Position numbers and translations under genes: made by a program. This document shows, piece by piece, positions 4,352 through 49,606 of a stretch of 64,000 nt of DNA (its first letter is position 1; the number at the start of each line of letters is the position of its first letter). The stretch is from the NCBI RefSeq assembly GCF_000521215.1, contig NZ_KI928932.1:119082-183081 (forward strand), in the 5' to 3' direction. The notes below the pieces were generated by a model. That model did not search any database. It was not told where the DNA came from and worked only from the letters and a program-made list of their open reading frames with translations. The stretch comes from Labrenzia sp. DG1229 (lineage in GTDB: Bacteria; Pseudomonadota; Alphaproteobacteria; Rhizobiales; Stappiaceae).

Positions 4352-4515
4352 GGCAATTAGTCTGATTATGCAGTTTTGAATAGTTTAAAGGTACCTGCTA
4401 GTCTGACGTCAGAGGAAACGGGACCTGAAGCACAAAACCGCCGTGACGCGATCTCAGGCGGGTTACCAGGAGAGGCGCTGGCCACGAGAAGCCGGCGAAT
4501 ATGAGGACCGGAATC

Positions 4516-5733
4516 ATGGATGTGAATGCGTATCTCGAAGAACGCCTGAGCAAACTTCATGACAATGGCAACTACCGGGTGTTTGCCGATCTCGAACGAC
4601 ACGCGGGTGACTTCCCTCGCGCATCCCGTTACCGCGAAGACGGATCCGTACAGGACGTGACTGTCTGGTGTTCCAACGATTATCTCGGGATGGGCCAGCA
4701 CGATAAAGTCGTCGGCGCGATGCAGGATGTCATCACCAAATGCGGTGCAGGCGCCGGTGGCACGCGCAACATTTCAGGAACCAACCACTATCACGTGCTT
4801 CTTGAGCGTGAACTTGCAGATCTCCACGCCAAGGAAGCTGCACTGATCTTCACATCCGGCTACGTTTCAAACTGGGCTGCTCTTGGAACGCTCGCATCCC
4901 AGGTTCCGGGCATGATCGTCTACTCGGACAGCCTGAACCACGCGTCCATGATCGAAGGCATCCGCCATTCCCGCTGTGAAAAGCGGGTCTTCAAGCATAA
5001 CGACTATGAAGATCTCGAGCGACTGATGGCAGCCGACGATCCGTCCGCCCCGAAGATGGTCGCCTTCGAAAGCGTCTATTCCATGGACGGCGATATCGCT
5101 CCGATCAGGGAAATCTGCGACGTCGCCGACAAGTTGGGTGCCCTGACCTATCTCGACGAGGTTCATGCGGTCGGCATGTACGGTCCGCGCGGCGGCGGTG
5201 TCGCCGAACGCGAAGGCCTGATGGACAGGCTGACCGTTATCGAAGGCACGCTCGGCAAGGCTTTCGGCGTCATGGGTGGCTACATCACCGGCAGCAGGAC
5301 CGTCGTCGATTTCGTCCGCTCCTTCGCCTCCGGCTTCATCTTCACCACGGCACTTCCGCCGGCACTTGCAGCAGGTGCGACCGAATCCATCAAGCATCTG
5401 AAGAACAGCCCGTTCGAGCGCAAGGCACACAAGGACCGGGTCGCTCAGGTTCGCGCGGCACTCGACAAGCGCGGCATTCCGCATATGGAAAACCCGAGCC
5501 ACATCGTCCCCGTGATGGTTGGCGACGCCAAGAAGTGCAAATGGATCTCCGACATCCTGCTGGAGACCTACGGCATTTACGTTCAGCCGATCAACTATCC
5601 GACTGTCCCGGTCGGCACGGAACGGCTGCGCTTCACGCCGACACCGCTGCACACGGCTGCGGATATCGAGCACCTTGCCGATTCGATCAATGATCTTTGG
5701 TCGCAATGCGCACTGGCGCGCGCAGTGGCCTGA
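4516..5733 (+). CDS. hemA: 5-aminolevulinate synthase
   Basis: 405 residues. It makes 5-aminolevulinate from glycine and succinyl-CoA, the first step of haem synthesis in alphaproteobacteria, using pyridoxal phosphate. It is a fold-type I aminotransferase: [12 protein letters not shown] near residue 50, [12 protein letters not shown] near 80, [12 protein letters not shown] near 215, and the Schiff-base lysine in [14 protein letters not shown] (Lys248). Full family length. The start at 4516 ([11 protein letters not shown]) follows GAGG at good spacing; the in-frame ATG at 4501 has a poorer site. It stands alone, with an FNR-type box upstream and a strong terminator downstream. Confidence 0.97.
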
Positions 5734-5768
5734 CACTCCCCTTCTCCTCCCGGAAGGTTCAACCTCAC

Positions 5769-5797
5769 CCCGCCCTTAACGGGCGGGTTTCTTTTTT
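5769..5797 (+). terminator. Rho-independent terminator of hemA
   Basis: The perfect 7-base GC stem cccgccc (5769-5775) / gggcggg (5781-5787) has a 5-base loop and is followed by tttcttttttc. It lies 36 bases after the hemA stop codon. Confidence 0.9.
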
Positions 5798-5928
5798 CGG
5801 CACGGTCTGAAAGAGAGGTTTTCGCACTGTCAGTGTCAATTCCGGTTCCACAGCCGATTCAATTCTTTTTCCTTTTCCTTCAGCAGCCCTAGCTACCTGC
5901 AGGTGTCTGGATTGTGGGGAACGGTATC

Positions 5929-6684
5929 ATGAGAATCGCAATTGCCTTCGTCGCCTGGTTCCTGATCTCGGTAAATCCGTCGGTTTCCGAAGAACTCGAC
6001 CTCGAACTCGTCCTGCTTGCCGATGCCACCGGATCGATTGATGAGGCCGAAATCCGGTTTCAGCGCGCCGGATATGCCGAAGCGATCACGGATCCCTCAG
6101 TTCTCAACGCAATCGCCAGCAACGCTTACGGCAAGATAGTCGTCACCTATGTCGAATGGGCCGACCAGATTTCGCAGGATATTGTCGTCGACTGGACGGT
6201 GATCGATGGCCCGGCCTCCGCGCAGGTATTCGCCGCCAAGCTGATGGAGGCGCCACGCCAGGCCTATGGACGCAATGCCATTGGTGCAGCGCTCCTGAAG
6301 GGCAAGGAACTTATCGACACCAATTCCTATCAGGGCCTGCGACGGGTTATCGATCTGTCCGCGGACAGCGCCAATAACTGGAATGGCCCGCCGATCCGCG
6401 GAGCCAGGGAAACAGTGGTTTCCTCCGGCATCGTCATAAACGGACTTGCGGTCCTGTGTCGGTACTGTTCCGGTCGGCCTGTGTCCTACGACCTGGAACA
6501 GAGATTTTACGATGAGATAATCGGTGGCCCCGCAGCGTTTGTCGTGACGGCAGACAGCGCCGAAACCTTCGCCGATGCCGTGCGCAAAAAGCTGATCCTC
6601 GAAATCGCGACCCGGCCACAAGACGCCGAGCGGATACTTCTGAAACTTGCCAGGGTGCAGCTGAAAAGGGCACCGCTTCGGTGA
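5929..6684 (+). CDS. DUF1194 domain protein, exported von Willebrand A-like
   Basis: 251 residues. A hydrophobic N-terminal segment (IAIAFVAWFLISVNPSVS) looks like a signal peptide. The mature part starts with a VWA-like strand and MIDAS-type motif LVLLADATGSIDEAE, followed by YVEWADQ and RVIDLSADSANN, which are hallmarks of DUF1194 proteins. Their function is not established. Two cysteines in LCRYCSGRP might form a disulfide in the periplasm. Start: ATG 5929 after GGGGA; a GTG at 5914 in frame is possible. It stands alone between hemA and the antiporter, and no partner gene is evident. Confidence 0.8.
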   Translation: MRIAIAFVAWFLISVNPSVSEELDLELVLLADATGSIDEAEIRFQRAGYAEAITDPSVLNAIASNAYGKIVVTYVEWADQISQDIVVDWTVIDGPASAQVFAAKLMEAPRQAYGRNAIGAALLKGKELIDTNSYQGLRRVIDLSADSANNWNGPPIRGARETVVSSGIVINGLAVLCRYCSGRPVSYDLEQRFYDEIIGGPAAFVVTADSAETFADAVRKKLILEIATRPQDAERILLKLARVQLKRAPLR

Positions 6685-6826
6685 AACACCAATCGATTGC
6701 GGTGATCACATTTTCCTCCTCCGGTAAATTCACAATTGCCACACGGGAGTGTCATCTGCTTATGATTTGAAAGTGCGTGAGGTGGCCCGCACTTATGGTG
6801 CCGTGGACTTCGGGAGAGAGAACGTA

Positions 6827-8080
6827 ATGGCCACCGGTCTATTGATGCTGGCGATGTTTACGGTCTGCTACACGCTGCTGGCAAAAAAACTGAACAACGG
6901 AATTCTGACGGCACCAATCCTCTTCATAGGCTTTGGTTATCTGATGGCGATGACTGGAATGATGCCGCTTGCGGAGGCAGAGCATCTCCTGCACATCGTC
7001 GCTGAACTTGCCCTGATCATTCTGCTGTTCCTGGATGCTGCCCAGATCAACCTGAAAGCGCTCAGGCAACGTCATCAGTGGCCTTTCAGAATGCTGCTGA
7101 TCGGCCTGCCGCTGGCCGTTCTTCTCGGAACGGCTGCAGCAGCGCCCTTCATGACCACCTATCCACTTATTGTCGCGGCACTCGCGGCGGCACTGCTCGC
7201 ACCGACGGATGCGGCTCTGGGACAGGCGGTCGTCTCCAACGAGGCCGTGCCGGAGCGGGTGCGGCGCGCACTTACGCTCGAAAGCGGACTTAATGACGGC
7301 CTTGCGCTGCCGGTAATCCTGCTCTTCGCGAGCCTGACCGCGGAAGTGATGCATCAGGATGCAACAAACTGGCTGCTGTTCGGAGCCAAGCAACTTGTCT
7401 TCGGACCACTCGTCGGTGGGGTCATGGGGACTGTCGGCGGCATACTTTTCCTCGCTGCAAAACGCCGCAAGATGACATCTGCGACAATCGAAGGCATCGG
7501 CGCCATTGCCATGGCGGGCGCAGCCTATCTTTCTGCCGGAATGGTAGATGGCAACGGCTTCATTTCAGCTTTTATCGCCGGTCTGTGTTTCGGCAATGTC
7601 ATCAAGGGTCAATGTGCCTTCATTTATGAATTCACCGAAAGCGAAGGGCAGATGCTGTCCTGGGGCGCATTTTTCCTGATCGGACTTGCAGTGTTGCCGG
7701 AAGCCCTCGCGCATCTCGACGCGTCCAGTCTGGCAATCATTCTGATCAGTCTTTTCGTGGTGCGCCCGCTTGCCGTCTGGATATCGTTGTCCGGAACCGA
7801 TGCCGCACCGCTCACGAAACTCTTTTTCGGCTGGTTCGGGCCACGGGGTCTTGCGACTGCCCTCTTTGCACTCCTGATCGTCGATCAGATAGATCACGAG
7901 ATCGGCGAATATCTATTGAACCTTGCTGTCAACGCTGTCTGGATCAGTGCCGTCCTGCACGGTGTCACGGCAGTTCCTTTCGCCAGATGGTACGGGGCCC
8001 GAATGTCGGATCAGGAGGGCGCAGCTGAAATGGCAGCGGTCCCGCCCATGCGACCGGAGGACCCTGCCGATCCAGCCTAG
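6827..8080 (+). CDS. Cation:proton antiporter (NhaP-like, CPA1 type)
   Basis: 417 residues, about twelve hydrophobic segments. The ESGLNDGLALP motif (after AALLAPTDAALG) is the conserved ND ion-binding signature of the CPA1/NhaP antiporters. It would exchange Na+ or K+ for H+ across the inner membrane. No C-terminal nucleotide-binding domain is present. ATG 6827 is chosen because GGGAGAGAG precedes it and the hydrophobic sequence starts straight after; the open frame extends to 6749 with a non-membrane-like leader. It lies 69 bases before the Rieske redox island on the same strand, so co-transcription is possible. The ion is not determinable from sequence. Confidence 0.85.
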   Translation: MATGLLMLAMFTVCYTLLAKKLNNGILTAPILFIGFGYLMAMTGMMPLAEAEHLLHIVAELALIILLFLDAAQINLKALRQRHQWPFRMLLIGLPLAVLLGTAAAAPFMTTYPLIVAALAAALLAPTDAALGQAVVSNEAVPERVRRALTLESGLNDGLALPVILLFASLTAEVMHQDATNWLLFGAKQLVFGPLVGGVMGTVGGILFLAAKRRKMTSATIEGIGAIAMAGAAYLSAGMVDGNGFISAFIAGLCFGNVIKGQCAFIYEFTESEGQMLSWGAFFLIGLAVLPEALAHLDASSLAIILISLFVVRPLAVWISLSGTDAAPLTKLFFGWFGPRGLATALFALLIVDQIDHEIGEYLLNLAVNAVWISAVLHGVTAVPFARWYGARMSDQEGAAEMAAVPPMRPEDPADPA

Positions 8081-8149
8081 ACCCATCGCAAATACAATGA
8101 ATCAGCCAGGGCTTCAGGACATGTCCGGAGCCGATAGCCGGGGGAAGAA

Positions 8150-9760
8150 ATGAAAAAACAAGTTGTTGCCACCTTGAGCGAATTGCCGGACCGGGATCCG
8201 CAATATGCACTGGTCGCCGATGTCGATCTCGTGATTGTCCGGTTCGACGACGAGATCTCGGTCTTCTACGGCCGGTGCCTGCACCGCGGCGCGCTGATGT
8301 CCGATGGCTATGTGCAGGGAGACAATCTGATCTGCGGCGTTCATTATTGGGACTACAAGGTCGACAGCGGGGTCTCGGAATACAACAATTCCGAAGCGCT
8401 TCCAAAGTTCCAGAGCTGGGTTGAAGGCAATGAAGTTCTTGTCGACGAAGACGAGATTGCCGCATGGGCACAGAAGAACCCGCAGCCGTTCCAGCGCGAT
8501 CAGTATCTCGGCCTTTATGCCGATACCAGTCATGGCACGGAAGAAGAACCGTATAATGGCCTGATCCAGCAATACGCTCGGGATGGACTGACCAAAACCG
8601 GCCATCACGGCCGGGTTGACGCCATGGGTGTGCCACGCAACCAGTTGCCCGACTGGGACGACATTCAGATCCTGACGGCCCAGCTGCAGCGTTTCCCCCT
8701 CCTGGACGAGGACCCGGTCGGCACCGATGTCGTGATCGGACCGAATGCGCAAAAGCCCCTTCGTCTGAAGATCCCGCTTTTCGTATCGGACATGAGCTAC
8801 GGCGCCCTGTCCGAGCCTGCCAAGGTCGCGCTCGCCCGTGGAGCGGAACTTGCAGGAACCGGTATCTGTTCAGGTGAAGGCGGCATGCTGCCTGAAGAAC
8901 AGGAAGCCAATTCCCGTTACTTCTACGAGCTGGCATCCGCGCGCTTTGGTTTTGACTGGGCCAAGCTCGACAATGTTCAGGCGTTCCACTTCAAGGGTGG
9001 TCAGGGTGCCAAGACGGGAACCGGCGGTCATCTGCCCGGCGCAAAGGTCAAGGGCAAGATCGCCGAGGTGCGTGGATTGAAGGAAGGTACAGACGCGATC
9101 TCGCCTCCGCGCTTTCCGGACTGGACGGAAAGTGCACAGATCAGGGAATTCGCTGATGAAGTGCGCACCCGAACCGGAGGTATTCCGATCGGCTACAAGC
9201 TGTCCGCCCAGCATATCGAAAAGGACATCGATGCGGCACTGGAAGTCGGCGTCGACTACATCATTCTGGATGGGCGCGGCGGCGGCACAGGCGCTGCACC
9301 GATCATCTTCCGGGACAACATCTCCGTCCCCACCATTCCTGCACTTGCCCGCGCCCGGCGTCACCTCGACAATCTCGGTCGAAATGACATCAGTCTGGTG
9401 ATAACCGGTGGACTGCGAAAACCGGCTGATTTTGTAAAGGCACTTGCACTGGGAGCAGACGCAGTTGCCATTTCCAATTCGGCCATGCAGGCCATCGGTT
9501 GTATCGCCATGCGTGCCTGTCACACCAACAACTGCCCGGTGGGTATCGCCACCCAGAAGCCACATCTGGTCAGCCGCCTGCAGATCGAAAAATCGGCACG
9601 CCAGCTTACCAATTTCTTCGAAGCCTCGGTTGAATTGATGCAGGTGATGGCCAGGGCCTGTGGCTATTCGCATCTGAACGAGTTCTGTCCGGATGATCTG
9701 ACAACCTGGAAGCGGGAAATGTCGGACTTGTCCGGCGTTGCCTATGGCGGCATTGCCTGA
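8150..9760 (+). CDS. Rieske [2Fe-2S] - glutamate synthase (FMN/3Fe-4S) domain fusion
   Basis: 536 residues. Residues about 1-105 form a Rieske domain with complete ligands Cys43-x-His45 and Cys62-x2-His65 (CLHRGA, CGVHYWDY). Residues about 190-520 are a glutamate-synthase central/FMN domain: VSDMSYGALSEPAK, the SGEGG loop, FKGGQGAKTGTGGHLPG, DGRGGGTGAAP, and the 3Fe-4S cysteines 451, 457 and 462 in CIAMRACHTNNCPVGIATQ. There is no glutaminase domain, so ammonia from glutamine is not its nitrogen source. It is probably a soluble flavoprotein that takes or gives electrons through the Rieske centre. RBS GGGGGAAGAA precedes the ATG. First gene of the island; substrate unknown. Confidence 0.9.
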   Translation: MKKQVVATLSELPDRDPQYALVADVDLVIVRFDDEISVFYGRCLHRGALMSDGYVQGDNLICGVHYWDYKVDSGVSEYNNSEALPKFQSWVEGNEVLVDEDEIAAWAQKNPQPFQRDQYLGLYADTSHGTEEEPYNGLIQQYARDGLTKTGHHGRVDAMGVPRNQLPDWDDIQILTAQLQRFPLLDEDPVGTDVVIGPNAQKPLRLKIPLFVSDMSYGALSEPAKVALARGAELAGTGICSGEGGMLPEEQEANSRYFYELASARFGFDWAKLDNVQAFHFKGGQGAKTGTGGHLPGAKVKGKIAEVRGLKEGTDAISPPRFPDWTESAQIREFADEVRTRTGGIPIGYKLSAQHIEKDIDAALEVGVDYIILDGRGGGTGAAPIIFRDNISVPTIPALARARRHLDNLGRNDISLVITGGLRKPADFVKALALGADAVAISNSAMQAIGCIAMRACHTNNCPVGIATQKPHLVSRLQIEKSARQLTNFFEASVELMQVMARACGYSHLNEFCPDDLTTWKREMSDLSGVAYGGIA

Positions 9761-9790
9761 CCTAACCGGGATGTTTTGAGGGAGAAAATC

Positions 9791-11767
9791 ATGAACGCTG
9801 AACCGCTTGACTGGATCAAGGTCGGACACATCGACGAATTGCCGGAAGGCCGTGTGAGAACCGTCACCGCACGCACTACCTCGATCTGCCTGTCTCATTT
9901 CGACGGGCAGTGGGCGGCCATGGACAACCATTGTCCACACCAGCGAGGTCCCCTCGGAGAAGGGTCGATTGAAAAGGGAAGCGACGGCAAGTGCTGGATC
10001 CGCTGTCCCTGGCACGGTTGGGATTTCGACCCGCTGACCGGTAAACCACCAGGCGGCCACGAAGACAGTGGCCAGGACCTTTATCCGCTCAAGATCGAGG
10101 ACGGCGAAATCTTCGTCGGTCTCGACGCCGAACCGGAGCACGAGCGCACGGTGACGGACGTCATGGCCGAGACCATGGTCAACTGGGGTGTGAAACGCGT
10201 CTTCGGCATGGTCGGTCACTCCAATCTCGGTCTGGCGGATGCCATCCGGTTGCAGGTCAACAAAGGCAATCTGGACTATATCGGCATCCGTCACGAAGGT
10301 GCTGCTGCCTTTGCAGCGTCTGCCTACGGCAAACTGACCGGCAAGCCTGCGGCCTGCCTGACCATCGCCGGCCCCGGTGCAACCAATCTCATGACGGGCC
10401 TTTGGGACGCAAAGGTCGACCGGGCGCCTGTTCTGGCGCTCACCGGTCAGGTACAGACCCAGGTCTTCGGCCCCGGAGCATTTCAGGATATCGATCTGAA
10501 ATCTGCCTTCGAAGCCGTCTCCCGCTTTTCCCAACCGGTGCTGAGCACATCACACCACGCGGAACTCATGTCGCTGGCGCTCAAGACGGCCATCGTTGAG
10601 CGCGATGTTGCCAACCTGATCTTTCCTGACGATGTCCAGACGAACCCGAGCAAAAAGGAAGCGGGGCATCCTGAAGGGCGCATGGGTGGAACAGAAGTTT
10701 CGCCTTCGGCAGGTGATCTCGCCAAGGCCGCCGAGTTGATAAACGGCGCAAAAAGACCAACGATCGTTCTCGGCTACGGCGCCAAGGACGTTCGTGAGAA
10801 AGTAATCGCACTGGCGGAGAAAATCGGTGCCCCGGTCATGACCACTTTCAAGGGCAAGGGTCTCATTCCGGACACGCATCCGCTTGCCGCCGGAGTGCTC
10901 GGGCGCTCTGGCACTCCCATCGCAAGCTGGTTCATGAACGAAGCGGATCTGATCATTTCGCTCGGATCGTCATTTGCGAATCATACCGGAATTGCACCGT
11001 ACAAGCCGATCATCCAGGTGGATTTCGAGCGCATGCAGCTCGGCAAGTTCCATCCTGTCACCTTGCCGGTCTGGGGGGAAATCGGCACATTCTGCGATGA
11101 AATAGCAACCAGTGTAGACAAGGCTGGCGATGCCGTCGATCAGGTGACCGAACTCGTCGAGAGATGGGCGATCTGGCGGGAAGAAAAGGAAACGAGACTA
11201 TCCGAAGACAGCGGACACGGCATACATTCCGCTGCCGTTTTCAAGGCCTTGACCGAGCTGTGCCCGGACGATGCCATCATCCCGGTCGACGTCGGCAACA
11301 ACACCTATTCCTTCGGCCGGTATTTCGAACCGCGCGGCCAGCGCATCTTGATGTCCGGTTACCTGGGCTCGATCGGTTTCAGCTTGCCGGCCGCTCTCGG
11401 GGCCTGGTGCGCGACCCGGGATTTTCCGGAATACAAGGGCCGAAAGGTGATCTCGATCTCGGGTGACGGCGGGTTTGGTCAATATGCGATGGAGTTTACG
11501 ACCGCGGTCAAATACGGCATGAACATAACGCATATTCTTCTCAACAATTCCGAACTCGGGAAAATCTCCAAGGAACAAAGGTCGGGTGAATGGCCAGTCT
11601 GGGAAACCAATCTCACCAATCCCTCCTTTGCAGCCTTTGCGCGTCTTTGCGGCGGCCATGGCCATCGGGTCACGGATGCAGCTGAGTTGAACGACGCAAT
11701 CAGGGCTGCAATTGCCCATGACGGCCCTTCCCTTGTGGAAATAGTAACGGACGCGGATTTAGTGTGA
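9791..11767 (+). CDS. Rieske [2Fe-2S] - thiamine diphosphate enzyme fusion (acetolactate synthase-like)
   Basis: 658 residues. Residues 1-115 are a Rieske/ferredoxin domain with Cys48-x-His50 and Cys72-x2-His75 (CPHQRG, CPWHGW). The rest is a full three-domain ThDP enzyme: the PYR domain with catalytic Glu169 in IRHEGAAAFAASAYG, a central domain (VLGYGAKDVREKV), and the ThDP/Mg site GDGGFGQYAMEF...LLNNSELGK. It resembles acetolactate synthase and pyruvate oxidase. An iron-sulfur domain fused to a ThDP decarboxylase suggests that electrons from oxidative decarboxylation pass to a partner. The ATG 9791 follows GAGGGAG; a TTG at 9776 is less likely. It lies 30 bases after the GltS fusion. Confidence 0.9.
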   Translation: MNAEPLDWIKVGHIDELPEGRVRTVTARTTSICLSHFDGQWAAMDNHCPHQRGPLGEGSIEKGSDGKCWIRCPWHGWDFDPLTGKPPGGHEDSGQDLYPLKIEDGEIFVGLDAEPEHERTVTDVMAETMVNWGVKRVFGMVGHSNLGLADAIRLQVNKGNLDYIGIRHEGAAAFAASAYGKLTGKPAACLTIAGPGATNLMTGLWDAKVDRAPVLALTGQVQTQVFGPGAFQDIDLKSAFEAVSRFSQPVLSTSHHAELMSLALKTAIVERDVANLIFPDDVQTNPSKKEAGHPEGRMGGTEVSPSAGDLAKAAELINGAKRPTIVLGYGAKDVREKVIALAEKIGAPVMTTFKGKGLIPDTHPLAAGVLGRSGTPIASWFMNEADLIISLGSSFANHTGIAPYKPIIQVDFERMQLGKFHPVTLPVWGEIGTFCDEIATSVDKAGDAVDQVTELVERWAIWREEKETRLSEDSGHGIHSAAVFKALTELCPDDAIIPVDVGNNTYSFGRYFEPRGQRILMSGYLGSIGFSLPAALGAWCATRDFPEYKGRKVISISGDGGFGQYAMEFTTAVKYGMNITHILLNNSELGKISKEQRSGEWPVWETNLTNPSFAAFARLCGGHGHRVTDAAELNDAIRAAIAHDGPSLVEIVTDADLV

Positions 11768-11843
11768 GGAATTAGGAGATAGTCTTGTCACCGCTGTCCC
11801 GGCAGGTAGCAGTGACAAGTCGAAATCTGAGGGAGAACGCATA

Positions 11844-12065
11844 TTGCAAACTGCAGAGTTTCTCATTGATCTGGGCCGCTATTACCTGATGGCCGGCGGT
11901 ATCGTTGCCGCGTTGTTCCTTGTCATCGGCATTGACCGCGTGGAGCCTTCTGCGCATGGTTCCTACGCCTTCCGTCCACTGTTGATACCGGGCATCTGCC
12001 TGATATGGCCGCTGGTGCTCTATCGCTGGTTCGTTCTTGAAAAACACGGCGAGGACCGGCGATGA
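11844..12065 (+). CDS. Small two-helix membrane protein of the Rieske island
   Basis: 73 residues starting at TTG 11844, preceded by GAGGGAG at good distance. Two hydrophobic helices (YYLMAGGIVAALFLVIGID and LLIPGICLIWPLVLYRW) are joined by a short polar loop. Its TGA overlaps the next ATG (12062-12065). No named family recognised. Size and location suggest a subunit that assembles or anchors the haem/Rieske membrane protein encoded just downstream. The coordinated overlaps of five genes in a row support real translation despite the rare start codon. Confidence 0.7.
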   Translation: MQTAEFLIDLGRYYLMAGGIVAALFLVIGIDRVEPSAHGSYAFRPLLIPGICLIWPLVLYRWFVLEKHGEDRR

Positions 12066-12235
12066 AACGCGCGCACCGCACAGCGCATGCCCGCATCTGG
12101 ACCGTTCTCGTGGTGTTGCTTCCGCTGGCCTTTTTCACTGTTCTTGCCCTGCGTCAATCTCCACCTGCCGACAGGCCGGCTGTCCTGATTGAAGCGCCTG
12201 CGGGTGGCACTAGCGGTACGGAGACCACTCAATGA
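12062..12235 (+). CDS. 57-residue single-helix membrane protein
   Basis: An ATG at 12062 inside the overlap with the previous stop opens a 57-codon frame ending TGA at 12233-12235, which itself overlaps the next ATG (12232). The protein is MKRAHRTAHARIWTVLVVLL followed by a Pro-containing hydrophobic stretch, then a polar Ala/Pro/Thr-rich tail. The basic N-terminus and one helix (about residues 13-31) suggest an inner-membrane protein with its tail outside. Four-base overlaps at both ends are the main evidence that it is a gene. Function unknown. Confidence 0.65.
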   Translation: MKRAHRTAHARIWTVLVVLLPLAFFTVLALRQSPPADRPAVLIEAPAGGTSGTETTQ

Positions 12236-13299
12236 GTGTGCAATACACACCGGTCATCTGGAACCGGAACAAGATCCTTTACGATGCCGTTCTGCTGATT
12301 GCCGTCGCACTTTACCTGTACATCTACATACGAGTTGCACCCGGATTTGAGGATGTGACCAAGCCCCTTGACGGTGCGATCCTGCGCATGCGCGCCTTCG
12401 GCAGCTGCGCCTTCCTGATGCTGACGGTCATCTTGTGCATCGGCCCGCTGGCACGCCTCGACAGAAGGTTCCTGCCGCTCCTCTACAACCGCCGGCACTT
12501 CGGCGTGATGACAGCCGGCATCGCGGCGGTTCATGCCAACTACGTGCTTGGCTGGTACTATGCCTTCTCGCCGACCGACTCGTATGTCGCGCTGCTCTCT
12601 TCAAACACGAGTTATGGACAGATCCTCGGGTTTCCGTTTGAAACGCTCGGGATCGCGGCCCTCCTGATCCTGTTCGTCCTGGCGGCAACAAGCCATGATT
12701 TCTGGCTGAGTTTCCTGGGCGCACCGATCTGGAAGGCGCTGCATATGTTCATCTATGCCGCCTATGCCTTTGTCGTGCTTCACGTCGCGCTCGGTGCGCT
12801 ACAGGGAACCGGCGACCCGATATTCACCAGTGTCGTTGCCGCAAGCGTTGTGCTGGTGTCCGCACTCCATTTCGCAACCGGGCGAATGGAGGCAAGGCGG
12901 GACCGCGGAGACGAGACCGCAAAAGCCTCTCTTCAGGAAAAAGGCTGGCTGGTCGCGGGAGAGATTGACGAAATCGACGTCGATTGCGCCAAGGTTGTGA
13001 CCCTCGCGGACGATGAACGGGTTGCCATTTTCAAATATGACGGCAAGCTGTCGGCGATCACCAATGCCTGTGCCCACCAGAACGGCCCCCTGGGTGAAGG
13101 CAAGGTGTTGTGGGGTTGCATTACCTGTCCCTGGCACGGTTACCAGTACAATCTGACGGACGGGCGCGCTCCCGCGCCCTTTACCGAAAAGATATCGACC
13201 TACAGGCTGCAACTGATCGGCTCGACCATCCTGCTCGATCCGAAGGCGTTGCCACCCGGCACGCATGTCGACCCGGTCGTTATTGGAGAAGCGGCATGA
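12232..13299 (+). CDS. Ferric-reductase-like haem membrane protein with C-terminal Rieske domain
   Basis: 355 residues. The N-terminal ~215 residues contain about six membrane helices of the ferric reductase/cytochrome b-like type. Candidate haem ligands are His89, His101, His171 and His184 (RRHFGVMTAGIAAVHANY, ALHMFIYAAYAFVVLH). The C-terminal domain (about 235-340) is a Rieske centre: Cys280-x-His282 and Cys299-x2-His302 (CAHQNGP, CPWHGY). No flavin or NAD domain is present, unlike true ferric reductases. The Rieske domain appears to replace that module, which suggests transmembrane electron transfer between haem and a soluble partner. ATGA overlaps on both sides. The direction of electron flow is unknown. 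Confidence 0.88.
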   Translation: MSVQYTPVIWNRNKILYDAVLLIAVALYLYIYIRVAPGFEDVTKPLDGAILRMRAFGSCAFLMLTVILCIGPLARLDRRFLPLLYNRRHFGVMTAGIAAVHANYVLGWYYAFSPTDSYVALLSSNTSYGQILGFPFETLGIAALLILFVLAATSHDFWLSFLGAPIWKALHMFIYAAYAFVVLHVALGALQGTGDPIFTSVVAASVVLVSALHFATGRMEARRDRGDETAKASLQEKGWLVAGEIDEIDVDCAKVVTLADDERVAIFKYDGKLSAITNACAHQNGPLGEGKVLWGCITCPWHGYQYNLTDGRAPAPFTEKISTYRLQLIGSTILLDPKALPPGTHVDPVVIGEAA

Positions 13300-14057
13300 G
13301 CTGGAAACAAACCAAGGACGCTCCGTTTTTTGTCGGTTATCTGAACGCGGTTCCCAAACAGCTGGTAACCTTTCTGCTGGTTTTTTCGGTCTGCTTTGCC
13401 GGTGGTCTCGGTATCGCCGCGCTGGCGCTTTCCTCGACACAGAATGATCCCGGCAACGGTGGCTTCCAGTGGGGCAACCGGTTTGAAAACATCGGGATCA
13501 TGGAGCTTCGCCCCTACCCCGTCTTGCGCGTGGCTGCGGATGCAGGCAATCCGGCCCGCACCTACATGCTTGCCGGACAGGGAAAACGCGGTGTCTTCAA
13601 CCAGGTGGAAAAGCACGAAAACGGCTTCGTCGCCATGCGCGGAGTGCCCGTCAAGCGCGGAGATCTAACAATGATCCAGGTCGGGCGGGTGGAAGCTGCG
13701 GAGAGTGAAGTCACCGGTTTCACACCTTCCGAGCCAATTCCACTTGGGCGCTGGAAACTGACTGGTGAGATCTGCGACGGCAAGTGCTACGCCGGTGCAA
13801 TGCGTCCTGGCCAGGGCCTTGCCCACAAGGCTTGTGCCGATCTGTGCCTTACCGGTGGCATTCCTCCGGTCTTTGTGTCGTCAGGGCCTGTCGAAAACCG
13901 CAATTTCTTCCTGATGGCGGACAAGGACGGCAATCTCCTCGGCGACGAAATCAAGCCGTTGCTCGCACTTTTTGTCGAGTTGGAAGGTGATGTCGAGCGG
14001 CTTGACGATCTGATGGTCTTCAAGGTCGATCTGGCAAAGGCGAGGGTATTGAGATGA
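13296..14057 (+). CDS. Membrane-anchored protein with C-x3-C-x15-C-x3-C motif
   Basis: 253 residues from ATG 13296, which overlaps the previous stop; an upstream in-frame extension lies wholly inside that gene and is dismissed. One N-terminal helix (residues about 21-46) is followed by a soluble, probably periplasmic domain. It carries CDGKC (160, 164), then HKACADLC (180, 184) and GGIPPVFV. The even cysteine spacing and adjacent histidine suggest a metal or cofactor site, or paired disulfides. I recognise the motif as recurring in uncharacterised proteins but can name no function. Stop overlaps the next gene by four bases. Confidence 0.8.
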   Translation: MSWKQTKDAPFFVGYLNAVPKQLVTFLLVFSVCFAGGLGIAALALSSTQNDPGNGGFQWGNRFENIGIMELRPYPVLRVAADAGNPARTYMLAGQGKRGVFNQVEKHENGFVAMRGVPVKRGDLTMIQVGRVEAAESEVTGFTPSEPIPLGRWKLTGEICDGKCYAGAMRPGQGLAHKACADLCLTGGIPPVFVSSGPVENRNFFLMADKDGNLLGDEIKPLLALFVELEGDVERLDDLMVFKVDLAKARVLR

Positions 14058-14305
14058 GTGAACCGACGCCTCCACCGGCCTGGCAGACCATACTGATTTC
14101 TCTGGTCCTGACCGGAGCACTTGTTGCCGTCGCCTATTATGTCTGGATTTATGCCAATATCGGCGTCCGCCAGTCGGACTATACAAAAGGTACGCTTTTG
14201 ACCGATTTGAGGTTCTTTGTCGGGTTACTCGCTGTATTTCTTGCCCTGACTGTTCTCGATCGGATCATCAATTTCGTGAAGTCAAAAATCAGCGGCGAAC
14301 ACTAG
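14054..14305 (+). CDS. Small two-helix membrane protein, last gene of the Rieske island
   Basis: 83 residues, ATGA overlap with the upstream gene. A Pro-rich N-terminus (SEPTPPPAWQ) is followed by two hydrophobic helices (ILISLVLTGALVAVAYYVWI and FFVGLLAVFLALTVLD) and a basic tail. No family recognised. Translational coupling suggests it is a subunit of the same membrane complex as the haem/Rieske protein and the four-cysteine protein. Confidence 0.75.
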   Translation: MSEPTPPPAWQTILISLVLTGALVAVAYYVWIYANIGVRQSDYTKGTLLTDLRFFVGLLAVFLALTVLDRIINFVKSKISGEH

Positions 14306-47768: not shown

Positions 47769-49606
47769 GCACGATCCGCCTCACCGCCGCACAGGCGATG
47801 GTCCGTTACCTGGCGGCGCAGATGACTGAGGACGGCAACCGTTTCATTGACGGCGTCTGGGCCATTTTCGGCCACGGCAATGTCGCTGGCCTTGGAGAGG
47901 CGCTTGAACAGGCGGGCAATGCGCTGCCCACCTGGCGCGGTCAGAACGAGCAGACAATGGCTCATACGGCGATCGCCTATGCCAAGGCCAACAAGCGGAC
48001 CCGCGCAATGGCCGTCACGTCCTCCATCGGCCCGGGAGCGACCAACCTTGTCACCGCAGCAGCTCTCGCCCATGTCAATCGACTTCCCCTGCTCCTGATT
48101 CCCGGTGACGTCTTTGCAAACCGCGCTCCGGACCCGGTTCTGCAACAGGTGGAGGACTTTGACGACGGTACGGTGTCGGCGAATGACTGTTTCCGTCCCG
48201 TGTCGCGTTACTTCGACAGGATCAGTCGACCTGAACACCTGCTGACGGCCTTGCCGCGCGCGTTTCAGGTCATGACCGATCCTGCCAATTGCGGACCGGT
48301 CACACTTGCATTCTGTCAGGACACCCAGGCCGAGGCATTCGACTACCCGGAGAGCTTCTTCGAGCCGAAGGTCTGGCGCATTCGGCGCCCGGAGCCTGAC
48401 AGCCGTGATATCGACGACGTCGCAGCGATGATCAAGGCTGCGGACAATCCGGTCCTGATATGCGGTGGCGGTGTTGTCTATTCGCAGGCAGAAGAGACGC
48501 TCGCGGATTTCGCAACCCGGCACGGCATTCCGGTCCTGGAGACCCAGGCCGGCAAATCCGCTCTTGCCCAGTCCCATCCGATGAACTTCGGCGCCGCCGG
48601 TGTCGATGGCGCCAAGTGCGCCAACAAGCTGGCCGAGGTTGCCGATCTAGTCATCGGTATCGGTACGCGCTTTCAGGATTTCACCACCGGATCCTGGGCC
48701 TTGTTCAAGAACTCCGGCCGCAAACTGGTATCCATCAACGTAAAGGGCTATGACGCCGGCAAGCATGGAGCTACCGGCGTTGTTGGAGATGCCAAGGCCG
48801 CGCTTGAGAAGATCTCCAGTGCGCTCGGAGATTACACCAGCGGAGCCTTCGACCCGCAATCCCGTCTCGACTGGCTCGCAAGGGTCGATGCCCATTGCAG
48901 CGCCCGCGCAAATGTCCCGGAAGACTATCTTCCACTTGATGCGGAAGTCATCGGTGCTGTCCAGCGCTCCGCAACGCACAAGACCATCGCCATGTGCGCC
49001 GCCGGCACCATGCCGGGAGCGCTCAAGCTGCTGTGGCAGGCGACGCAGGGCGGTTACCACATGGAGTATGGTTACTCCTGCATGGGATATGAGATTGCCG
49101 GAGCCCTGGGTATCAAACTGGCGCAGCCGGACCGGGATGTTGTCTGTTTTGTCGGAGACGGCTCCTACATGATGGCCAATTCCGAACTCGCCACTGCGGT
49201 CATGCGCCGGGTCCCTTTTACGGTCGTTCTTACCGACAACCGGGGTTATGGCTGCATAAACCGGCTTCAAATGGGCACCGGTGGAGAGCAGTTCAACAAT
49301 CTTTATCAGAACTGCAATGTCGAAGTTCAGCCGGATATCGACTTTGTCGCCCATGCTGCTTCCATGGGTGCGCACGCCGTCAAGGCACGGGACATTGCGG
49401 ATCTGGAAGCCCAGATTCTGGCCTCCCGTGACCGGGGGATCCCGACCGTCATCGTTATCGACACCGATCCGATGCATGGCCCGGGTGAAGCCGGTGGTGG
49501 CCACTGGTGGGATGTTGCAATTCCCGAGGTCTCTTCCCGCGAGGCGGTCAGGACCGCGCGCGAAGGTTATGTGGCGGCGCTGAAGCATCAGCGCGCCGCG
49601 GATTAA
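47765..49606 (+). CDS. iolD: 3D-(3,5/4)-Trihydroxycyclohexane-1,2-dione hydrolase
   Basis: 613 residues. A thiamine diphosphate enzyme that opens the cyclohexanedione ring in inositol catabolism. Catalytic Glu in TWRGQNEQTMAHTAIAYAK; family features VWAIFGHGNVAGLGEALEQ near the N-terminus and the ThDP motif VGDGSYMMANSELATAV with VVLTDNRGYGCINRLQ. The length is right for IolD. ATGA overlap with iolC; 20 bases before iolE. Confidence 0.95.
   Translation: MSTIRLTAAQAMVRYLAAQMTEDGNRFIDGVWAIFGHGNVAGLGEALEQAGNALPTWRGQNEQTMAHTAIAYAKANKRTRAMAVTSSIGPGATNLVTAAALAHVNRLPLLLIPGDVFANRAPDPVLQQVEDFDDGTVSANDCFRPVSRYFDRISRPEHLLTALPRAFQVMTDPANCGPVTLAFCQDTQAEAFDYPESFFEPKVWRIRRPEPDSRDIDDVAAMIKAADNPVLICGGGVVYSQAEETLADFATRHGIPVLETQAGKSALAQSHPMNFGAAGVDGAKCANKLAEVADLVIGIGTRFQDFTTGSWALFKNSGRKLVSINVKGYDAGKHGATGVVGDAKAALEKISSALGDYTSGAFDPQSRLDWLARVDAHCSARANVPEDYLPLDAEVIGAVQRSATHKTIAMCAAGTMPGALKLLWQATQGGYHMEYGYSCMGYEIAGALGIKLAQPDRDVVCFVGDGSYMMANSELATAVMRRVPFTVVLTDNRGYGCINRLQMGTGGEQFNNLYQNCNVEVQPDIDFVAHAASMGAHAVKARDIADLEAQILASRDRGIPTVIVIDTDPMHGPGEAGGGHWWDVAIPEVSSREAVRTAREGYVAALKHQRAAD

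Follow-up and report, generated by a model that had tools for sequence, protein, structure and literature searches.

Transmembrane haem reductases are usually viewed as fed by a flavin. As the signature of the YedZ/STEAP group, excerpts of PMC3591440 give an arginine in place of the first haem histidine, and they list an architecture in which the ferric-reductase domain bears a Rieske domain; excerpts of PMC5859297 report a published fusion of a CDGSH domain to a Glu_synthase domain. We analysed a stretch of 64,000 nucleotides from the 7.6-Mb genome of Labrenzia sp. DG1229 (the whole stretch is called the window here) and examined seven adjacent genes, A to G, together with the antiporter gene KH in front of them, all lying in a single orientation at 6749-14305 (+). 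These genes encode a real redox system of two modules, assembled from domain families already known, which is undescribed as far as the literature was searched: our full-text search, covering few subscription papers, returned no published pathway for this gene set, in agreement with an earlier sequence-only reading of the window. If our interpretation is true, the haem reductase would be supplied by a thiamin enzyme and a GltS-type flavoprotein, with Rieske centres in between, which would represent a new wiring scheme. The features are as follows; FMN stands for flavin mononucleotide, ThDP for thiamin diphosphate and OB for oligonucleotide/oligosaccharide-binding.

6749 to 8080, + strand: KH, cation/proton antiporter of the Na_H_Exchanger family (Pfam PF00999, E-value 2e-35), the upstream partner
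8150 to 9760, + strand: A, N-terminal Rieske domain and FMN domain of the GltS type that retains the [3Fe-4S] cysteines of GltS, without a glutaminase domain
9791 to 11767 (the open reading frame opens with TTG at 9776), + strand: B, N-terminal Rieske domain and ThDP enzyme of the pyruvate-oxidase type
11844 to 12065, + strand: C, small membrane protein corresponding to the first half of CD
12062 to 12235, + strand: D, small membrane protein corresponding to the second half of CD, with an ATGA overlap with C
12232 to 13299, + strand: E, six-helix haem domain of the MsrQ/STEAP type with a C-terminal Rieske domain
13296 to 14057, + strand: F, one membrane anchor plus a part that is probably periplasmic and was modelled as two OB-like folds; C160, C164, H177, C180 and C184 are invariant
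14054 to 14305, + strand: G, small membrane protein in the position occupied in relatives by a 95-aa protein

All seven open reading frames that the sequence-only reading had placed here were recovered, and the last five genes are indeed joined by four ATGA overlaps (C/D at 12062, D/E at 12232, E/F at 13296 and F/G at 14054). For B, the ATG at 9791, behind GGGAG, is the best start, rather than the TTG at 9776. Each of proteins A, B and E carries a complete Rieske site (C-x-H ... C-x2-H; Pfam PF00355) within 8150-13299, and the proposed fusion partners were borne out by Pfam matches that all exceeded their gathering scores: Rieske and Glu_synthase in A, Rieske and three TPP_enzyme domains in B, and Ferric_reduct and Rieske in E. 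The description of the three Rieske domains as independent stood for A, whose domain is distinct (19-20% identical to those of B and E), but not for B and E, whose domains are 37% identical (E-value 3e-18). The Pfam scan gave no match for C, D or F and none above the cut-off for G. A search against PHROGs returned no useful match, and a scan for promoters and terminators stayed at chance level.

Protein E matched PF01794 with 42 bits (Pfam cut-off 28) and has six helices, with histidines in transmembrane helices 3 and 5 (TM3 and TM5). Its structural model, with a mean predicted local distance difference test score (pLDDT) of 77, aligned with STEAP1 over 198 residues (Z 17.8, root-mean-square deviation [rmsd] 3.9), and the tail of the model aligned with the Rieske ferredoxins of dioxygenases (BphA3, Z 16.3, rmsd 1.6, 104 residues). 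H101, H171 and H184 were invariant in 20 out of 20 sequences, and the positive-inside loop charges place both termini in the cytosol. Protein E is thus predicted to be a transmembrane haem domain with a Rieske domain facing the cytosol. MsrQ/YedZ and STEAP1 share with it the modelled six-helix fold, the haem-type histidine positions and the arginine pair (here at 87-88, 13-14 residues ahead of H101 in TM3); by contrast, only protein E ends in a Rieske domain, predicted to be cytosolic, and has the additional invariant H89. Against the MsrQ profile NF003831 it scored 37 bits and did not reach the cut-off of 130. We rejected an assignment as an NADPH oxidase, since Pfam showed the flavin domain to be absent and the H89-x11-H101 arrangement with arginines at 87-88 is not the four-histidine spacing of NOX proteins. 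Among the operon genes, Pfam detected neither MsrP nor a flavin reductase.

Protein A matched PF01645 with an E-value of 2e-92, and its nearest solved sequence is the GltS large chain. It has in common with the large subunit of glutamate synthase the FMN domain and three cysteines, which we take to be the known [3Fe-4S] ligands of GltS and which our alignment showed to be retained in haloarchaeal and other homologues. It differs in its added N-terminal Rieske domain, in the lack of a glutaminase domain (no Pfam match up to an E-value of 1) and in one deviating stretch that presumably corresponds to a part of GltS near the substrate site. On the last two features we rejected glutamate synthase as the function of A; the earlier label of a GltS-like flavoprotein is right for the FMN domain but not for the domain make-up as a whole. 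The CDGSH-Glu_synthase fusion proteins resemble A in that a [2Fe-2S] unit sits N-terminal to the same FMN domain, but their cluster is of another type and, in the one region that we read, neither B nor E lay beside the fusion gene. A plasmid of Vibrio fortis encodes a protein (L145, 6689-8239) with an A-type FMN domain in which CDGSH motifs replace the Rieske domain. Because this homologue swaps one kind of [2Fe-2S] cluster for another, it favours the view that the N-terminal cluster of A acts as a relay. Four genomes of the alphaproteobacterial sample described below had matches to the FMN part of A only (68-71%).

Judged by its sequence, protein B is closest to the pyruvate oxidases, that is, to oxidative decarboxylases. 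Its best solved relative is Escherichia coli PoxB (3eya), and its best NCBIfam profile is PRK08611, although its scores lie below the family cut-offs (397.7 bits versus 742 for PRK08611; 316 versus 792 for PRK09124), which one haloarchaeal B and the mycobacterial B likewise missed. The ThDP domains contain the catalytic glutamate and the GDG/N motif, for which the haloarchaeal sequences have SDG. With PoxB and other pyruvate oxidases B shares these domains, the HEG glutamate and the FQ-(D/E) stretch, motifs that we assume to have the same roles as in those enzymes; unlike PoxB, it begins with a Rieske domain and ends at the ThDP fold without a C-terminal tail. The nearest named record is Roseibium album, with 98% identity in B. 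A second open reading frame for a ThDP enzyme lies far away in the window, at about 47846-49468, and is 27% identical to B.

Protein F has one helix and, in 24 sequences, an invariant C160, C164, H177, C180 and C184. It had no convincing relative among PDB sequences (one match at an E-value of 0.8), and Foldseek returned no match to its model at an E-value of 0.001 or below. In VIA-align, the model reached Z values of up to 8.5 against OB folds (80 residues aligned, rmsd 2.9); because this is near the level usual for unrelated models, we label F as OB-like only, and the model suggests that F probably consists of two OB-like folds in a periplasmic part. Short relatives with the four-cysteine part alone occurred in 4 out of 289 alphaproteobacterial genomes. 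One such protein (L180, 8592-9059) is probably secreted, and a SCO1-like open reading frame, recognised by eye, lies nearby. Genes C and D were separate in 15 out of 15 Roseibium-group loci, as they were in the Rhizobium plasmid copies and in certain further ones; in all 25 of the B-linked loci that do not belong to the Roseibium group they were fused, encoding 116-131 aa. For G and the 95-aa protein of relatives, BLASTP found no match and hhalign gave 63% only.

Taking these features together, we propose a two-module electron-transfer system in which electrons from cytosolic oxidoreductases reach the haem protein E by way of Rieske centres and then leave it for the membrane or periplasm, a proposal to which we give an even chance. 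Module 1 would be cytosolic and consist of A (FMN/[3Fe-4S]) and B (ThDP), both equipped with a Rieske [2Fe-2S] relay of their own and often with the antiporter adjacent; module 2 would be the membrane part, with CD, E, F and G. B would oxidise a 2-oxo acid such as pyruvate, and the substrate-reduced ThDP and FMN centres would each deliver electrons to their own Rieske centre and from there to the Rieske domain of E, which would stand where MsrQ, STEAP and NOX proteins have their flavin supply. From there electrons would travel over the haem, presumably outward, to the outer face, where the anchored F with its site of four cysteines and one histidine, or else the quinone pool, may accept them. 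The coupling of a ThDP enzyme to a membrane haem protein, put forward in the sequence-only reading, gains from the closeness of B to pyruvate oxidases and from the predicted topology of E. As a lead only, the system could serve, in redox or ionic stress, to dispose of electrons released by decarboxylation or by the oxidation of amines.

To describe how the genes are distributed, we examined the loci of the best 80 of 532 B matches, some of which are short contigs in which absences are weak. The membrane module C-D-E-F was present at 40 out of 80 loci, 15 from the Roseibium group (entries under the names Roseibium, Labrenzia or Stappia, or without a name) and 25 from elsewhere. When KH and G were ignored, the linked loci showed seven gene orders. 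On one FastTree tree of B, from which a fragment scoring below 1000 bits (L083) was omitted and in which 14 loci shorter than 12 kb without E were scored as unknown, linkage changed a minimum of 9 times, and well-supported branches alone force 7 changes (for the linked label). One B locus binned as Nitrosomonas (L076) sits among alphaproteobacterial sequences in this tree and is possibly a misbinned contig. The antiporter belongs to the gene unit: KH precedes A in 13 out of 15 named Roseibium-group loci and was found at 37 out of 80 B loci, many of them short contigs. Full-length F was encoded elsewhere in 13 out of 23 genomes whose B locus has no membrane module, namely in 11 out of 12 (7 Tateyamaria) without a DUF5996 gene beside B and in 2 out of 11 with one; in this check, which did not include L080, 13 out of 14 F matches were full length.

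We then counted the genes in 289 alphaproteobacterial genomes (the class sample), taking matches that begin by residue 6 as Rieske-bearing A (8 out of 37) and requiring F to be full length (14 out of 18). B was present in 13 genomes, Rieske-bearing A in 8 and full-length F in 14. Of the 8 A genomes, 7 have B, and the same 7 all have F. Fisher tests, which ignore phylogeny and are descriptive, gave 4e-10 for A and B (7 shared), 9e-10 for A and F (7) and 2e-7 for B and F (7). In four of these 7 genomes the three genes lie apart, at 20-47 kb (G474 and G594) or on separate contigs (G574 and G669). Of the 45 genus genomes surveyed, 28 contain A, B and F together, 12 none, 3 A and F, 1 B and F, and 1 F alone. 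Among the genomes that lack one gene of the A-B pair, G528 (A, no B) is 67% complete and G001 (B, no A) is 90% complete. In a phylum sample of 349 genomes, F was found in 7 and B in 5, and 5 out of 5 B genomes have F. The set is thus co-conserved in gene order and, where apart, in gene content; the sequence-only reading, which would have been undermined by genes standing mostly apart in relatives, largely withstood this comparison, with the qualification that the set splits into two modules and that B is absent from some loci. That the genes are neighbours by chance, as their separation in some relatives might suggest, is extremely unlikely, since they have been relinked repeatedly and co-occur without linkage; the locus, class-sample and genus surveys all contradict it.

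Further comparison revealed not one seven-gene unit, as had been supposed, but two modules, A-B and C-D-E-F(-G), repeatedly joined, with the antiporter in front and B missing from three relatives. Four haloarchaeal plasmids encode a Rieske-bearing B at 57-60% identity, as does one plasmid of Mycobacteroides at 52%, and Rieske-bearing A was found on three of the four haloarchaeal ones; because the pair occurs both in Alphaproteobacteria and on haloarchaeal plasmids, its function is probably a wide one. Conversely, Rhizobium plasmids and other genomes carry the membrane module without A-B. An unfused ThDP gene lies 2-3 kb from C on three Rhizobium plasmids and in G474 and G594; these genes form one family (46-73% identity) and occur at 5 out of 26 examined module copies not linked to B. 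In two near-identical Sphingomonadaceae loci (L080 and L081, 1-1654), an unfused ThDP open reading frame lies about 4.6 kb upstream of A and 6.3 kb upstream of B.

This modularity bears on an alternative that we consider unlikely yet worth weighing, in which A-B and the antiporter, often together with DUF5996 and K248 (a small membrane protein), act in the cytosol as a system of their own for stress or ion homeostasis, and C-D-E-F-G is a distinct redox module that shares regulation but no electrons with it. DUF5996 occurred at 19 out of 40 B loci lacking the membrane module, 12 of these 19 also having a pair of genes for an extracytoplasmic function (ECF) sigma factor and its anti-sigma factor, and at 0 out of 40 loci with the module. 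K248 is encoded at several A-B loci, has no Pfam match and is channel-like by eye only. In Halorarius, B and A share a stretch of no more than 8 kb with an antiporter and an ion channel, and both E and F are absent from it; moreover, F occurs without A and B in half of the class-sample F genomes. Separate systems are harder to reconcile with the presence of F in all 7 class-sample genomes with A and B, four of them unlinked, with the seven gene orders and with the existence of operons that retain A beside the membrane module without B. We rejected a strict exclusion between DUF5996 and the membrane module, because G474 and G594 have both, so this is a tendency only; the restriction of ECF sigma genes to DUF5996 loci was also rejected, as a locus with the complete set (L126) has one too.

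The B-less operons belong to three species of the genus and read KH-A-C-D-E-F-G, KH having been missed by the profile in one of them (L262); B is thus not indispensable. Two of these loci (L260 and L261) have the same upstream neighbours as the window. Each B-less genome encodes an unfused ThDP enzyme with an E-value of about 1e-82 to B, whereas the best non-B ThDP enzymes of two B-bearing genomes reach 6e-52 and 1e-51. The PoxB-like enzyme of the B-less species scored 559-564 bits against PRK08611, again under the cut-off of 742. That the B-less genomes hold a closer, unfused PoxB-like enzyme suggests, at the level of sequence, that B does PoxB-like work. With B-less operons and a PoxB-like enzyme in close relatives, the roles of the parts are open to complementation in cultivable Roseibium. 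In one B-less species, the PoxB-like gene has an MsrP-like open reading frame, recognised by eye, as its neighbour (L265, 5088-8396).

Several observations weigh against the two-module electron-transfer system. Three species of the genus manage without B, and the replacement by a PoxB-like enzyme was seen in a small sample (3 B-less versus 2 B-bearing genomes). At 7 B-linked loci A is missing, and one genome of the genus, 90% complete, has B and F without A. In the class sample, 6 out of 13 B genomes lack both A and F, so that none of the 6 B genomes without A has F, and A and B are both absent from 7 out of 14 F genomes; the Fisher values there take no account of phylogeny. Genomes with A-B-DUF5996 loci mostly lack F (present in 2 out of 11). 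Finally, electrons could possibly flow in reverse. We also put forward, tentatively, a more specific form of the proposal, holding it somewhat less probable than not: interchangeable cytosolic flavin or thiamin oxidoreductases with Rieske plugs would dock on E, whose Rieske domain would replace the usual flavin dehydrogenase, and the oxidation of carbon compounds or amines would be coupled to electron export, the antiporter balancing ions. If this is true, the A-B half would be common to bacteria and haloarchaea.

Inward flow would mean that a quinol or periplasmic donor reduces the haem of E, which passes electrons through Rieske centres to A and B working reductively, for example in reductive amination by the GltS-type domain. 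Rieske centres are able to work both ways, and the chemistry of GltS is reductive in known enzymes. However, B is nearest to oxidative decarboxylases, and A differs from GltS at residues that we take to lie near the substrate site. MsrQ and other ferric-reductase-domain proteins also send electrons outward, according to excerpts of PMC3591440 and PMC5676040, and we regard inward flow as quite improbable.

Defence against reactive chlorine or other oxidants, in which the membrane module would supply reducing power to periplasmic repair in the manner of MsrPQ, is a further alternative that we judge to be doubtful. It is favoured by a copy on a Rhizobium plasmid (L141) that is followed by a gene for an ECF sigma factor, two genes for NrsF-like anti-sigma factors (102-108 bits, under the cut-off of 300) and a gene annotated as belonging to the chlorite-dismutase family, SigF/NrsF being linked in excerpts of PMC4623255 to hypochlorite defence in perchlorate reducers. 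ECF sigma/anti-sigma pairs at 12 out of 80 B loci and the MsrP-like open reading frame beside the PoxB-like gene point the same way. By contrast, no such regulator was found among the annotated genes at 4501-14305 of the window, and two other Rhizobium plasmids have no sigma or NrsF genes adjoining the module.

On the Rhizobium plasmid L141 (8897-15385), a gene for a short-chain dehydrogenase/reductase (SDR) lies directly upstream of C-D-E-F, and in L263 an SDR-like open reading frame, recognised by eye, likewise precedes C. In the window, genes for 5-aminolevulinate synthase and a DUF1194 protein are located upstream of the antiporter (4501-6684), and their homologues are likewise placed in several Roseibium-group loci; that a haem-supply gene adjoins a haem operon may be coincidence.

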